Notes under the pieces: generated by a model
Told to the model about the DNA's origin: nothing
The model's database searches: none
The model's input: the letters and a program-made list of their open reading frames with translations, nothing else
Assembly: GCA_022562055.1 (NCBI GenBank)
Contig: JADFQA010000029.1
Coordinates: 1 to 40,778 of the forward strand
DNA: 40,778 bases
Source: Acidobacteriota bacterium
Lineage (GTDB): Bacteria; Actinomycetota; Acidimicrobiia; Spongiisociales; UBA5794
Reading direction: 5' to 3'
Part shown: positions 28,192-34,435 of the stretch, one piece after another
Layout: the number at the start of each line of letters is the position of its first letter
Position numbering within the stretch: position 1 is the first letter of the stretch
Made by a program: the position numbers and the translations under genes

Positions 28192-29199
28192 ATGCCCCGG
28201 ATGAGAATGAACCAAGCGATCGTCGCAGCTCTTCACGATGAGATGAAGGAAGACTCTTCAGTGATCGTGTTCGGTGAGGATGTTGCCGAAGCCGGTGGTC
28301 CGTTTAAAACGAGTGACGGGCTTCTTGCTGCGTTCGGCGCATCAAGAGTTAGGGACACGCCAATATCGGAGATGGCCTTTCTGGGTGCCGCCGTCGGTGC
28401 TGCTGCGACTGGCCTTCGACCTGTTGTCGAGATTATGTTCGTCGAGTTTCTTGGCGTGGCCCTTGATCAGTTGACCACTGAGGCCGCCAAGTTCCACTAC
28501 TTATCCAATGGGCAGATAAAGGTACCTATCACAGTACGGGCTTCGATCGGTGCTGGTCTCGGGTTCGGTTGCCAGCATTCTCAAACCATGGAAACGTGGA
28601 TGATGGGAACTCCTGGGTTGAAGCTGGTTGTACCGTCTGGGCCGCAGTCGGCGTATGGATTGTTGCGCGCGGCGATCAGAGACAACAACCCCGTCGTGGT
28701 GCTCGAGCCGAGAGTCCTCTATGCGCAGAGAGCTGAAGTCAAAACAGGAGTTGACCAAATCATTCGGATCGGCGAAGCGAGCATTGTGGCGGAGGGCGAG
28801 GACGTCACGATTGTTGCTCTTGGATCCACCGTGGGCACTGCTATCGAGGCCGCGTCCAAGTCAGAATGGTCCGCAACGATCGTCGATTTGCAGAGTCTCG
28901 TGCCGTGGGACGTCGACGCCGTTGAAGCATCAGTTCGACAGACCGGTCGCCTCGTAATCGTCGAAGAGAATCCCTACAGCGGCGGTTGGGGGGCAGACAT
29001 CGCCGCGGAGATAGGAACGCGGTTGTTTCGGGAACTCGCCGCTCCGATTTTGCGAATAACTAGCCCAGATGTACCCGTACCGTTTGGTAAGGAACTCGAG
29101 AACTGGTATCGACCGAACGCTGCCTACGTTGCACGGCAGGTGACCGACTACCTGAAACGGGACACGATACCGCCGCACTGGTGGGAGGATCAACAATGA
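28192..29199 (+). CDS. Thiamine-diphosphate 2-oxo acid/acetoin dehydrogenase, E1 beta subunit
   Basis: A 335-residue transketolase-type subunit. VIVFGEDVAEAGGPFKTSDG, DTPISEMAFLGAAVGAAATG and GLRPVVEIMFVEFLGVALDQ mark the pyrimidine-binding domain with its catalytic glutamate in ISEMAF; VEENPYSGGWGADIAAEI belongs to the C-terminal domain. It pairs with the alpha subunit encoded next to form an alpha2beta2 E1 that decarboxylates a 2-oxo acid or cleaves acetoin. AcoB-like or pyruvate/branched-chain members cannot be told apart by eye. Beta precedes alpha, the reverse of the common order. RBS AAAGG precedes ATG 28192. Confidence 0.9.
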   Translation: MPRMRMNQAIVAALHDEMKEDSSVIVFGEDVAEAGGPFKTSDGLLAAFGASRVRDTPISEMAFLGAAVGAAATGLRPVVEIMFVEFLGVALDQLTTEAAKFHYLSNGQIKVPITVRASIGAGLGFGCQHSQTMETWMMGTPGLKLVVPSGPQSAYGLLRAAIRDNNPVVVLEPRVLYAQRAEVKTGVDQIIRIGEASIVAEGEDVTIVALGSTVGTAIEAASKSEWSATIVDLQSLVPWDVDAVEASVRQTGRLVIVEENPYSGGWGADIAAEIGTRLFRELAAPILRITSPDVPVPFGKELENWYRPNAAYVARQVTDYLKRDTIPPHWWEDQQ

Positions 29200-30194
29200 A
29201 AGCAGTAAACACCGCTGAGAGGCTCGATCGGCGGCAATCCATTAGAGATGACCCACGTGAATGGTATCGACGGATGGTCGAGATTCGCACATTCGAAGAC
29301 CGGGTGAATCAACTATTTCTCGATGGATTGGTCCATGGCACGACCCATCTTTGCACGGGCCAGGAAGCAGTTGCTGTGGGCATCGCGGCGGTCGTCAACC
29401 CGGCCGACTCGGTTACATGCACTTACCGCGGCCATGGTATCGAACTCGCTCTAGGGTTGACAGTCGTCGATCTTCTGGCCGAGATCATGGGGCGAACGCT
29501 TGGTCCGGTTGGTGGGCTGGGAGGCTCCATGCATCTTTCGGCGCCGGAGTTGGGTCTGCTGCCGACGTTCGCCATCGTCGGTGCAGGGTTGCCGGTTGCG
29601 GCTGGAGCCGCATTGACAGCACAGGTAACTGGTAATGGCGCCGTTGCGCTGGCGATTTTCGGTGACGGTGCCACGAACATCGGCGCATTTCACGAGAGCC
29701 TCAATCTGGCGGCGATCTGGAACCTGCCAGTCGTATTCGTCTGCGAGAACAACGTTTACGGCGAATACAGCCGTATCGATCGTACGACACCGATCGAGGA
29801 TCTTGCGATCAGGGCGAATTCGTACGCGATGAGAAATGAGATCGTCGATGGTCAAAATGTTGAGGCGGTGCGACAGGCTGTCTCCGTGGCTGTGGAGCAC
29901 GCACGTCGCGGCGACGGACCAACGCTCCTTGAAATGAAGACATACCGTTACGCGGGTCACTCGAGATCAGATACGGCGTCGTACCGGGTGGAAGGCGAGT
30001 TCGATGAGTGGTACAGGAGAGACCCCATTGTCACATACGGAGACAAATTGATCGAGCGCGGCGTTTTCGACTCTGAGGGGCGTGACGAAATCCATGCAGA
30101 GGTCAAAGAAACTATCGAAGCGGCGGTAGAGTTGGTCGGCAAGAGTCCGAAGCCCGACCCTTCGACAATGTTTCGGCATATCTACGCGCCATAA
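29196..30194 (+). CDS. Thiamine-diphosphate 2-oxo acid/acetoin dehydrogenase, E1 alpha subunit
   Basis: A 332-residue subunit whose ATG overlaps the E1 beta stop (ATGA), with GGGAGG upstream. The thiamine-diphosphate/Mg motif runs from GDG (156-158) to Asn185-Asn186 in FVCENN. GLGGSMHLS and the phosphorylation-loop-like YRYAGHSRSDTASYR are as in AcoA/PdhA; the substrate channel residues are not decisive. Together with E1 beta it transfers an acyl or hydroxyalkyl group to the lipoyl arm of the following gene product. Confidence 0.92.
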   Translation: MKAVNTAERLDRRQSIRDDPREWYRRMVEIRTFEDRVNQLFLDGLVHGTTHLCTGQEAVAVGIAAVVNPADSVTCTYRGHGIELALGLTVVDLLAEIMGRTLGPVGGLGGSMHLSAPELGLLPTFAIVGAGLPVAAGAALTAQVTGNGAVALAIFGDGATNIGAFHESLNLAAIWNLPVVFVCENNVYGEYSRIDRTTPIEDLAIRANSYAMRNEIVDGQNVEAVRQAVSVAVEHARRGDGPTLLEMKTYRYAGHSRSDTASYRVEGEFDEWYRRDPIVTYGDKLIERGVFDSEGRDEIHAEVKETIEAAVELVGKSPKPDPSTMFRHIYAP

Positions 30195-30212: not shown

Positions 30213-30449
30213 ATGCGTTACAAGATCAAAATGCCCAAGGTTGCCGACTCGGTCGACGAAGTCGTGATACTGGAATGGCTTACCGAGGTAGGGTCGATCA
30301 TTGAAGCCGGACAACCGCTGGTTCAGGTTGAAACCGATAAGGTTGATATGGAAGTCCCGTCGCCGGTTTCGGGAACACTCATTGAGATGCTCGTGTCGTC
30401 TGATGACGAAGTTTCCACCGGCACGCCGATCTGTATCATTGAGGCATGA
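30213..30449 (+). CDS. Free-standing lipoyl carrier domain
   Basis: A 78-residue protein consisting only of a biotinyl/lipoyl domain. Lys43 in VETDKVDMEVPSPVSG is the lipoylation site (DKV/DKA context typical of lipoyl, not biotinyl). It starts like an E2 N-terminus (IKMPKVADSVDEVVILEWL) but ends cleanly after PICIIEA with a stop; there is no subunit-binding or catalytic (HxxxDG) domain in any frame downstream to 31063. RBS GAGGAGATCGG precedes ATG 30213. It may be a mobile lipoyl carrier working with an E2/E3 encoded elsewhere, or the stump of a truncated E2. Confidence 0.88.
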   Translation: MRYKIKMPKVADSVDEVVILEWLTEVGSIIEAGQPLVQVETDKVDMEVPSPVSGTLIEMLVSSDDEVSTGTPICIIEA

Positions 30450-31063: not shown

Positions 31064-32089
31064 GTGACGACTGACACACCTGCCCCAACCATCAAGGAAG
31101 TTGCCGCGTACGCGGGCGTGGCGCTGTCGTCCGTGTCCCGAGTTCTCAATAAGCACCCCGACGTTAGCACTGCGATGCGCAGTCGAGTACTGGAATCTGT
31201 TGAAGCTCTCGGCTACGAACCGAACCTCCTCGCTGCGGGACTTCGAAGCGGATCGACTCGAACTATCGGCTTTATTGTCTCCGACATCTCCAACCCGCTG
31301 TTCGCTGAAATCACTCTGGGCGCATCGCGGCGTCTCGAAGAGGCTGGTTATACGATGGTGCTCACCAATTCAGAGGGGGATCCGCAACGCGATGGGGAGA
31401 TGATCCGCTTGCTTCGTTGGAGGCAGGTCGACGGGTTCATTGTGTCGGTCGCGGATGAGAGCAGAAAATCGACGATAGAAGAACTGAAACGTGTGGACAC
31501 GCCCGTTGTGCTTCTTGATCGCGAGATCCCTGAACTGAACATGGCGGCCGCAGTACTCACCGACCACCGTTCAGGCATGAACGATGCGACCGAACATCTG
31601 GTCGGTCTTGGTCATCGGAGGATTGCGTTGATCTCGGGTCCTCTCGTCACACGGCCCGGGCGTGAACGTCTCGAAGGCTTTCGGGCGGTGTTCCGTGCTC
31701 ACGACATTCCTCAGCCCGAATATCTCATCAGAAGCGGGCCTATGAACGCAGAGTTCGGCGAGGCCATGACGCATGAAGTCCTCGATGATCCGAACCCACC
31801 TACGGCAATCCTCTGCGGGGGCAACCTTACGCTTATCGGCGTTCTACGTGCGCTCAAGAGTAGATCGTTGAGCGTTGGATCAGATGTGGCGTTGATTTCG
31901 TGTGACGACGTGCCCCTTGCCGAACTCCACGTTCCTCCCGTGTCGGTCATCGCTCGTGATACTGTCGCTCTAGGCGAACTTGCGGCCGAAGTAATGCTGC
32001 AACGAATGACCGCGGAAGTACAGACGGCTCAAGTCGAGATCGTGCCTACTCACCTTATCCTCCGCAGCTCAACGTTCAAAGCAAGTTAA
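31064..32089 (+). CDS. LacI family transcriptional regulator
   Basis: A 341-residue repressor. The N-terminal helix-turn-helix has IKEVAAYAGVALSSVSRVLN and the hinge helix LLAAGLRSGSTRTIGFIVSD; the periplasmic-binding-protein-like core includes SNPLFAEITLGASRRLEEAG, GHRRIALISGP and LISCDDVPLAELHVPPVSVI. Both DNA and effector domains are intact. GTG 31064 is the start. It sits between two operons whose promoters carry GAAACGTTTC-type sites, the expected binding motif for this family. The effector is probably the substrate of the pathway or a derivative. Confidence 0.93.
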   Translation: MTTDTPAPTIKEVAAYAGVALSSVSRVLNKHPDVSTAMRSRVLESVEALGYEPNLLAAGLRSGSTRTIGFIVSDISNPLFAEITLGASRRLEEAGYTMVLTNSEGDPQRDGEMIRLLRWRQVDGFIVSVADESRKSTIEELKRVDTPVVLLDREIPELNMAAAVLTDHRSGMNDATEHLVGLGHRRIALISGPLVTRPGRERLEGFRAVFRAHDIPQPEYLIRSGPMNAEFGEAMTHEVLDDPNPPTAILCGGNLTLIGVLRALKSRSLSVGSDVALISCDDVPLAELHVPPVSVIARDTVALGELAAEVMLQRMTAEVQTAQVEIVPTHLILRSSTFKAS

Positions 32090-33027
32090 ACACGGTTGGC
32101 ACCGGGCCGGCCACCCAAACCGATCGAGGATCGCTGCGAGTTCGTCGGAGTTTTCGTGACGGGCCTTGAAATTGCGAAAGCGAGGGTCGCTGGCAAGCTC
32201 TGGACAACCGATAGCGATGGTGAGCCGCTGCCAGAATTTCTCCTTGGGGCAGGCGACAACAAGCCATCCGTCATTCGCTTCGAACGCCTGGAATGGGATG
32301 AGGGACGGGTGCGCCGACTTTGATTTACGCACGGGTTCGATTTCTCCGTTCAACCACCATATAGCCGGGTATGTAAGGAGACTGATCGCGGTATCGAATA
32401 GGCTCAGGTCACAGTCCATGCCGACACCGTCGCGACGTGCCGCATGTACACCGGCAAGCAGCGATGGCAGCGACATAGCCTCCGGCGTAGTCGACCAGCG
32501 ACAGGCCCGATTTCGCCGGAGGGCCACCCGGCTCACCCGTGAGGCTCATCCACCCGGTGAGTCCTTGGAGGATATAGTCGTAACCGGGCTCGGAGCGATA
32601 GGGTCCTCTCATTCCGAATCCCGACAGCGACACGCATATAATCGCCTGATTATATGGAGCACAAATCGGCGTAGGTGATCTTGAGCCGTTCTGGCACGTC
32701 GCCGCGCAGGTTGGAGTACACGGCATCGGAGTTGCGCACAAGGTCTTCGAATACAGTCCTGCCCGCCGAGGTCGACATGTCGAGGCTGAGGCTGCGCTTG
32801 TTCCGGTTGAACGCTTCATAGAACAGGCTGTCCTCACCCTCCTGGAGTGGGGGAATGTAGCGGCTCACGTCTCCGCCGAACCGAGGGTCCTCAATCTTGA
32901 TGACATCCGCGCCGAGGTCGGCAAGGTGGAGACTCCCGAAGGGACCGGCTCCGTATTGTTCGATGGCAACAATACGGATGTCGGCAAGTGGGAGGAGTCG
33001 CTCGGGCTCTGATGCTGATTCGGTCAT
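32069..33027 (-). pseudogene. CaiB/BaiF-type CoA-transferase, frameshifted and truncated
   Basis: Class III CoA-transferase homologue starting at ATG 33027 with GGGAGGG. LPLADIRIVAIEQYGAGPFG and HLADLGADVIKIEDPRFGGD (with the catalytic aspartate region) are intact, followed by VSLSGFGMRGPYRSEPGYD in a second frame (shift between 32650 and 32670) and LLAGVHAARRDGVGMDCDLS in a third (shift near 32455-32475). It then runs to about 32110 and lacks the last 70-80 residues of the family; the end collides with the convergent lacI gene. The combination of two shifts and a truncation points to true decay. Confidence 0.8.
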
Positions 33028-33215: not shown

Positions 33216-33698
33216 TCAGGCACCGCGCGGTGGCTGGAACAGCTCCACAGTGATGCCGTCGGGATCGCGTAAATAGCCCACCCTGGCACCTGTGTTGGGC
33301 CCGACAGTCACCATTACCGGGTGCGGACTCACCGGCGTGGCTCCAGCGGCCATAGCGTGGCCCCACGTTGTGTCGATGTCGGCAACTTCGATGCAGATAT
33401 GAACGTTGCCCGGATTCGCTGTCTCAGGTGGGTTGGGACTTTTTTTGTCGGTCCTGTAGTCGAGAATTTCGAGTGCGATGCCGCCAGGAAGCTCGATGAT
33501 GGAGGCATCGATGCGGATTCCGTCGTATCCCGTGACCTGCCCAAGGTACGGTCCGTCAAGCATCCGACGCCACCGAGGCTCCACGCCGAGAAAGACCTTC
33601 CAAAATGCAAGAGAACGGTCTACGTCGACGACAGTAATGCCGATGTGGTGCACGCGACGTAGCCGCGTTGATCCGGTCTGAGGGCCGTCGATCACCAT
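33216..33698 (-). CDS. VOC family protein, methylmalonyl-CoA epimerase/glyoxalase-like
   Basis: A 160-residue two-module VOC enzyme. VHHIGITVVDVDRSLAFWKV carries the first metal histidine, VHICIEVADIDTTWGHAMAA the second, and YLRDPDGITVELFQPP the terminal glutamate, so a metal site can form. The length and IELPGGIALEILDYR are like lactoylglutathione-lyase or epimerase relatives. ATG 33698 overlaps the SDR stop by 7 nt, so the two are translationally coupled and under the operator at 34480. Confidence 0.87.
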   Translation of the reverse strand: MVIDGPQTGSTRLRRVHHIGITVVDVDRSLAFWKVFLGVEPRWRRMLDGPYLGQVTGYDGIRIDASIIELPGGIALEILDYRTDKKSPNPPETANPGNVHICIEVADIDTTWGHAMAAGATPVSPHPVMVTVGPNTGARVGYLRDPDGITVELFQPPRGA

Positions 33699-34435
33699 GT
33701 GACGTAGCCCCCGCCGTAGTTGAGGGTCTGGCCTGTGATGTAGCTACCCTCGTCAGAGAGCATGAACCAAATGTACCCGGCCAGTTCCTCTGGCTGAGCG
33801 GGTCGCCCGAGTGGCACGGAGGCGTTGCGCACCAACGCCAGTTCCTCGGTGGTCGTGCCCCGCAGCGACGCTAGGCGTTCGAGCAGAGCATCCTGCATCG
33901 GCGTATCAATGATGGCCGGGCAAATCGCGTTAACACGAACCGGGATGGAGGCGAGGGCGTAGGCGAATGACCGTGTGATCGACAGGACAGTTGTTTTCGT
34001 GGCGGCGTATACGGCAGCTTCGGTGGTCGTAGCGAGCTTTGCGGAAGACGATGACAGGTTGACGATGGCGCTACCGGGCAGCATGGTCGGGCCGATCCCC
34101 TGACAGAGGAAGAAAATCGCTTCGGCGTTAACCGTCATTAGCTCCCGCCACTCGTCGACTGTGAATTCCGCGATAGGCTTCAGACGGATGATCCCAGCCG
34201 CGTTTATGAGATAGTCAAACCCTGCGGCGGCCTCGATGGCCCTCTGGCGGGCATCTTGTTCTCCGAGATCGATAACCAGCTTGGTGACGCCATCACCGAA
34301 CGCCGCGTCGAGACCCTCACGGTCGACATCAAGGGCGATGACGCTGACATCCTCGGTGACGAGCCGGTTGACCACGGCCCGTCCGATGCCGCTGGCGGCG
34401 CCAGTGACAAGGGCCTGCTTGCTTGCCATCATCAT
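33692..34435 (-). CDS. Short-chain dehydrogenase/reductase
   Basis: A 247-residue classical SDR. TGAASGIG near residue 11 binds NAD(P); ALDVD after the second strand has Asp at the position that favours NAD(H); INAAG is the NNAG variant; NLSSSSAKL supplies the serine, and YAATK the Tyr/Lys pair. The ending GQTLNYGGGYVTW is typical. RBS AAAGGAGC lies before ATG 34435. It is the first gene of a minus-strand operon with the VOC gene. Sugar, polyol or hydroxy-acid substrates are plausible given LacI control. Confidence 0.9.
   Translation of the reverse strand: MMMASKQALVTGAASGIGRAVVNRLVTEDVSVIALDVDREGLDAAFGDGVTKLVIDLGEQDARQRAIEAAAGFDYLINAAGIIRLKPIAEFTVDEWRELMTVNAEAIFFLCQGIGPTMLPGSAIVNLSSSSAKLATTTEAAVYAATKTTVLSITRSFAYALASIPVRVNAICPAIIDTPMQDALLERLASLRGTTTEELALVRNASVPLGRPAQPEELAGYIWFMLSDEGSYITGQTLNYGGGYVTW

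Follow-up and report, generated by a model that had tools for sequence, protein, structure and literature searches.

The stretch of DNA analysed here (40,778 nucleotides, hereafter the window) contains a short operon in which the genes of an E1 beta and an E1 alpha subunit of a 2-oxoacid dehydrogenase precede a small gene encoding a lipoyl-domain protein, here called LIP (order E1 beta-E1 alpha-LIP, Table 1). The ATG of the E1 alpha gene at 29196 overlaps the E1 beta stop codon (the mechanical ORF starts at a GTG at 29181), and the LIP start lies 18 bases beyond the end of the E1 alpha gene and is preceded by a good ribosome-binding sequence, GAGGAG. The E1 pair has the Pfam domains that define a 2-oxoacid dehydrogenase E1 (E1_dh, Transket_pyr, and Transketolase_C), and the solved structures nearest to the E1 alpha subunit are pyruvate dehydrogenase E1 alpha chains; against the NCBIfam pyruvate dehydrogenase E1 equivalogs, both subunits stay below the cut-offs (E1 alpha, 333 vs 393.85; E1 beta, 307.7 vs 321). 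The LacI-family gene downstream encodes a probable regulator. The pieces of the broken CoA-transferase gene lie in different frames and are 61, 53, and 61% identical to L096 in tblastn comparison, and an intact homologue adjoins E1 in some relatives. The VOC protein and the short-chain dehydrogenase (SDR) further downstream are possible pathway neighbours.

Table 1. Features of the E1-LIP region of the window
Feature	Position	Strand	Evidence and remarks
E1 beta subunit, 2-oxoacid dehydrogenase	28192..29199 (start may be 28207)	+	PF02779 and PF02780; orthologues (64-70% identity) share its neighbours
E1 alpha subunit, ThDP-binding	29196..30194	+	PF00676, 257 bits
LIP, stand-alone lipoyl-domain protein	30213..30449	+	78 aa, predicted lipoyl site Lys43; ORF, Pfam, relatives, model
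LacI-family regulator	31064..32089	+	59% identical to L074 LacI; orthologous to LacI beside LIP in relatives
Broken CoA-transferase family III gene	32144..32979	-	PF02515 in two pieces; C-terminal part missing
VOC/glyoxalase-family protein	33216..33698	-	Pfam; 37% identical to VOC protein in L062
Short-chain dehydrogenase	33692..34435	-	Pfam; SDRs recur in related clusters

Judged by its sequence, LIP is an E2-type lipoyl domain that is complete and has nothing else attached to it. PF00364 covers residues 4-76 (profile positions 2-73 of 73) with 75.2 bits against a cut-off of 22.1, and a score of this size in a coupled operon is not a chance match. Translation and the Pfam match confirm the first-pass annotation, which had described a 78-residue lipoyl protein ending in a clean stop after the E1 beta and E1 alpha genes, and its choice of Lys43 as the lipoyl lysine was right: the lysine lies in a DK(V/A) turn, and K43 and D42 are invariant in all 38 aligned clade sequences. 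The other invariant positions of this alignment are Pro8, Trp22, Gly27, Gly54, and Gly70, and the motif around the lysine in LIP is ETDK. The AlphaFold2 model (mean pLDDT 91.7) is a confident flattened beta-barrel of the lipoyl fold, superposing at about 0.9-1.5 Å on many solved lipoyl domains (matches include 3crk, 1y8n, and 1qjo), and the closest sequence relatives of LIP are lipoyl domains of E2 proteins. The comparison with GcvH that had been drawn earlier holds as a working analogy but not as a family assignment: the NCBIfam GcvH models, with cut-offs near 116, give LIP 22 bits (cut-off 115.85), and PF01597 matches it only in part (residues 13-59, 23.1 vs 22.2 bits).

The earlier claim that no subunit-binding or catalytic E2 domain lies downstream in any frame agrees with HMM and tblastn searches of the window. 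The E2-catalytic HMM (PF00198) has no match in the six frames of the window, and eight E2 proteins compared with it by tblastn find nothing above noise other than the lipoyl domain itself. The subunit-binding-domain HMM finds no match in the window or in any clade cluster, the positive control being 19 other loci in which the same HMM does match. None of the ORFs between 30507 and 31074 matches a Pfam family. By inspection, gcvT and gcvP are absent from the called genes of the window, as are hdr-like genes and a lipoate-protein ligase (the LbpA criterion).

A GTDB genome collection was scanned with an E1 beta alignment, yielding 80 loci with organism names, of which the nearest are mainly from Acidimicrobiia MAGs; clade membership was defined by a concatenated E1 beta and E1 alpha tree together with six-frame domain searches. 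The window E1 groups in a single clade that comprises 43 loci and has an SH-like support of 0.966. In 40 dereplicated loci (the window included, mostly from uncultured Acidimicrobiia) LIP stands alone; its gene either immediately follows that of E1 alpha or separates the E1 beta and E1 alpha genes, shares the E1 alpha strand, and is in most cases no more than about 100 bases away from E1 alpha. Its length is kept throughout these clusters, the protein ending 0-9 residues past the domain, and none of the 40 has a full-length E2 at the locus, the arrangement in close relatives that the first-pass annotation had named as the sign of a mere truncation. Outside the clade a full-length E2 beside E1 is common (11 of the loci in the E1 tree). 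All clade members retain LIP with E1; the exception is the nearest outgroup, L095 from Chloroflexi, in which the E1 subunits are fused and no lipoyl domain is nearby. Of 138 genomes in the taxonomic order of the host, 19 others have a lipoyl match of 51-61% identity within a short open frame. Left out of these counts were L129, whose "LIP only" label is an edge artefact (the frame has 1033 aa, and its C-terminal domain is lipoyl-like), L145 and L146, which fall outside the clade, and L131 and L137, flagged as E2-only on weak partial matches. LIP and E1 distances over 38 loci are correlated (r = 0.89, a value reached in 0 of 2000 permutations), as would be expected of a matched pair; shared descent contributes to this and would by itself give a correlation, and the value argues against frequent swapping of LIP. 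The constant length, the co-divergence with E1, and the lack of a full-length E2 in the clade support the earlier reading of LIP as a stand-alone lipoyl carrier for an E1, and an E1-LIP layout conserved in about 40 related clusters is, on this comparative evidence, a genuine variant rather than a broken gene.

It is thus very improbable that LIP is a truncated or frameshifted E2 remnant or an assembly error. The broken CoA-transferase gene 1.7 kb downstream indicates some local decay, but the identical stand-alone form recurs in 40 dereplicated clusters and no remnant of a catalytic or binding domain is found in any frame; the 40 relatives and the missing remnant rule out E2 truncation. Still harder to credit is a role as biotin carrier: PF00364 spans biotinyl as well as lipoyl domains and BCCPs occur among the fold matches, but LIP has the lipoyl motif ETDK and not the biotin motif MKM, its best sequence relatives are E2 lipoyl domains, and its partner is an E1, with no linked carboxylase.

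Three clade members (L085, L088, and L119), which form a supported subclade in the E1 tree, have the gene order E2 catalytic domain, E1 beta, LIP, E1 alpha. The separate E2 piece is 218-267 aa long, has neither a lipoyl nor a binding domain, and in L085 spans PF00198 nearly end to end (207.8 bits). Of all the observations, this split E2 points most strongly to LIP acting with a core in trans. A linked E2 core is absent from the other 37 of the 40 clusters, and no dedicated unlinked core was found in the 22 genomes searched, with the exception of one lone domain in G025 that looks unrelated. Among the relatives, small E2 frames were examined in G053 (contig C87), G025 (contig C80), G104, and G105: the frame in G053 is an ordinary E2 cut by the contig end, that in G105 belongs to a lipoyl/E2 pair of another E1, and that in G025 is a divergent lone domain with no adjoining E1. 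Other unusual arrangements were seen among the loci collected. A lone divergent E2 catalytic domain of 209 aa with no adjoining E1 lies at L169:1815-2444. The E1 clusters of a Neobacillus (L097:7945-10726) and a Paenibacillus (L098:7929-10717) encode an E2 without a lipoyl domain, composed of the catalytic domain and apparently two subunit-binding repeats, and there the lipoyl domain forms the N-terminus of the next protein of about 560 aa, probably E3. At L069:7096-11006, in an E1 lineage outside the clade, E1 alpha, E1 beta, and a stand-alone lipoyl protein of 75 aa are followed directly by a 551-aa protein that by eye resembles ThDP enzymes of the acetolactate synthase type.

Of the eight E1 alpha genes in the host genome, which is 97% complete, one is interrupted by stops and another is part of a Kgd/OdhA-type fusion. 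PF00198 has three matches in this genome, all in long frames: two are E2s of 498 and 377 aa, each of which also has lipoyl and binding domains, and the third is the Kgd/OdhA-type protein. As these are the sole matches, the idea that the host hides a dedicated E2 core was rejected, and a dedicated core for LIP was not found in the host genome or in most relatives. The search for an E2 without its own lipoyl domain, suggested in the earlier note, is therefore positive beside E1 in the three relatives with the split E2, and in the host yields only the domain within the Kgd/OdhA-type fusion. That LIP is encoded "in place of E2", as was also claimed, is true of the locus but not established for the reaction, for which the two ordinary host E2s probably supply the core. 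With eight E1 genes to two ordinary E2s, E1s outnumber cores in the host, and E2 cores common to several E1s seem to be usual there. The complete 498-aa E2, an E3, and a LipB-LipA fusion are found together on contig C2; the fusion makes lipoylation of LIP possible. The same contig carries a second stand-alone lipoyl protein (L070:6700-10275, 80 aa), accompanied by a separate E1 pair, an SDR, and an RraA-like gene. Elsewhere in the host, complete E1 pairs on contigs C33 (L161:4557-6647) and C18 (L162:5961-8035) have no lipoyl domain or E2 in the neighbourhood. The same holds for the pair on contig C50 (L163:5671-7617), in which an E1 alpha gene with in-frame stops lies beside an intact E1 beta gene among sugar-catabolism genes; this contig ends with an IS110-type transposase gene.

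We propose that LIP is a dedicated, diffusible lipoyl carrier of the operon E1 that delivers its acyl group to an E2 core from another locus and shares an E3, a model we consider probable, with reservations. In this model the ThDP-dependent E1 would decarboxylate or cleave its substrate and reductively acylate the lipoyl group predicted on Lys43 of LIP; the acyl-dihydrolipoyl-LIP would then diffuse to the E2 core, where the acyl group would be transferred to CoA, and LIP would be reoxidised by a shared dihydrolipoamide dehydrogenase (E3). In L085, L088, and L119 the core would be the product of the separate E2-catalytic gene beside E1. In the host a housekeeping E2 would provide it, with the 498-aa E2 that adjoins E3 as the likeliest candidate, a choice of partner that is a guess because neither the host nor most relatives have a dedicated core. 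A precedent for transfer between polypeptides is known in Corynebacterium, in which the transferase domain of OdhA uses lipoyl groups on AceF (PMC7568260). Against the carrier model, the available E2 cores hold tethered lipoyl domains, with which a free carrier must compete.

Two other readings keep LIP as a lipoyl protein and change what follows the E1 reaction. The glycine cleavage system operates free of E2, and the acyl group on LIP might likewise be passed to water or to another enzyme of the cluster, LIP being reoxidised by E3. The scarcity of E2 cores, linked or dedicated, in the clusters and genomes searched fits such a scheme, as do the CoA-transferases or AMP-binding CoA ligases near some E1s; the separate E2 core in three clade members speaks against it, and the CoA-transferases themselves hint at a CoA thioester product, so that we regard it as rather unlikely. 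Alternatively, E1 could form a product other than acyl-CoA, for example by carboligation or simple decarboxylation, and LIP could have a redox or regulatory role. SDRs and sugar-acid enzymes dominate the neighbourhoods, and the host E1 pairs on C33, C18, and C50 do without a nearby lipoyl domain or E2, which would suit this reading; however, the lipoyl lysine and its surrounding motif are invariant and every clade member keeps LIP with E1 (the outgroup fusion excepted), and we consider it improbable.

The genes near the operon in many relatives point to a 2-oxoacid substrate derived from 6-deoxy-sugar acids. Among 41 dereplicated loci, some of which are short so that all counts are minima, L-fucono-1,5-lactonase-like amidohydrolases were found in 16, L-rhamnose mutarotase-like proteins in 10, Gfo/Idh oxidoreductases in 16, LacI regulators in 12, and two kinds of enolase-superfamily proteins resembling sugar-acid dehydratases in 17 (a count that includes weak cross-matches). 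Sugar ABC transporters, whose count also includes weak cross-matches, and CoA-transferases are neighbours as well. Steps of these kinds make up the non-phosphorylating pathways for L-fucose and L-rhamnose (PMC11199699; PMC6336799). In a limited search, the enzymes that commonly complete such pathways did not turn up in the clusters: no FAH-type hydrolase was detected among 642 proteins searched with a single seed, and one HpcH-like protein was seen. We speculate that E1-LIP acts on the 2-oxoacid that ends an L-fucose/L-rhamnose-type route. The further idea that the E1 clade and its free LIP complete a non-phosphorylating deoxysugar-acid pathway, forming an acyl-CoA by oxidative cleavage in place of the usual hydrolase or aldolase reaction and without a dedicated E2, is offered as a long shot. 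A lactonase query found no match in three genomes of the host genus, in a search run without a positive-control genome; given this result and the broken CoA-transferase gene, the host may use the operon otherwise.

In the usual arrangement the product of E1 goes to a swinging arm within E2, and E2 is seen as an indispensable scaffold joining E1, the arm, and E3. That a conserved E1 can have a free protein as its arm suggests that arm and scaffold are separable, a split directly visible in the three clusters with a separate core. E1-LIP may also serve as a small matched E1-carrier pair for use in vitro, and it suggests an end step of deoxysugar catabolism in uncultured, often marine, Acidimicrobiia. 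In the literature covered (an incomplete search, with subscription papers outside its scope), we found no description of a pairing, in bacteria, between an E1 and a free lipoyl protein of the E2 type. The lipoyl domains of E2 proteins of pyruvate dehydrogenase (PDH), BCKDH, and acetoin dehydrogenase resemble LIP in sequence, fold, lipoyl-lysine motif, and linkage to E1 alpha and E1 beta genes, but LIP is a whole protein with no subunit-binding or catalytic domain attached or linked. The actinobacterial OdhA/Kgd-AceF hybrid likewise has lipoyl and E2 catalytic domains on separate polypeptides with transfer in trans, as proposed here for LIP, but its lipoyl domain is within a full E2 (AceF) and its transferase is fused to E1o (PMC7568260), whereas LIP is free and its E1 an ordinary alpha/beta pair. 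Archaeal single-domain lipoyl proteins (PMC3904984) consist, as LIP does, of the lipoyl domain only, a likeness of domain content; they are a domain class in that work, whereas LIP is tied to a fixed E1 partner in a clade of actinobacteria. LbpA of Hdr-like sulfur oxidation (PMC6067878) is also a stand-alone lipoyl protein encoded in a gene cluster, but it is GcvH-like and linked to hdr-like genes, whereas LIP is E2-like and linked to E1. GcvH itself is a free lipoyl shuttle between enzymes, the role we propose for LIP, which by sequence belongs to another family and has no linked glycine-cleavage genes.
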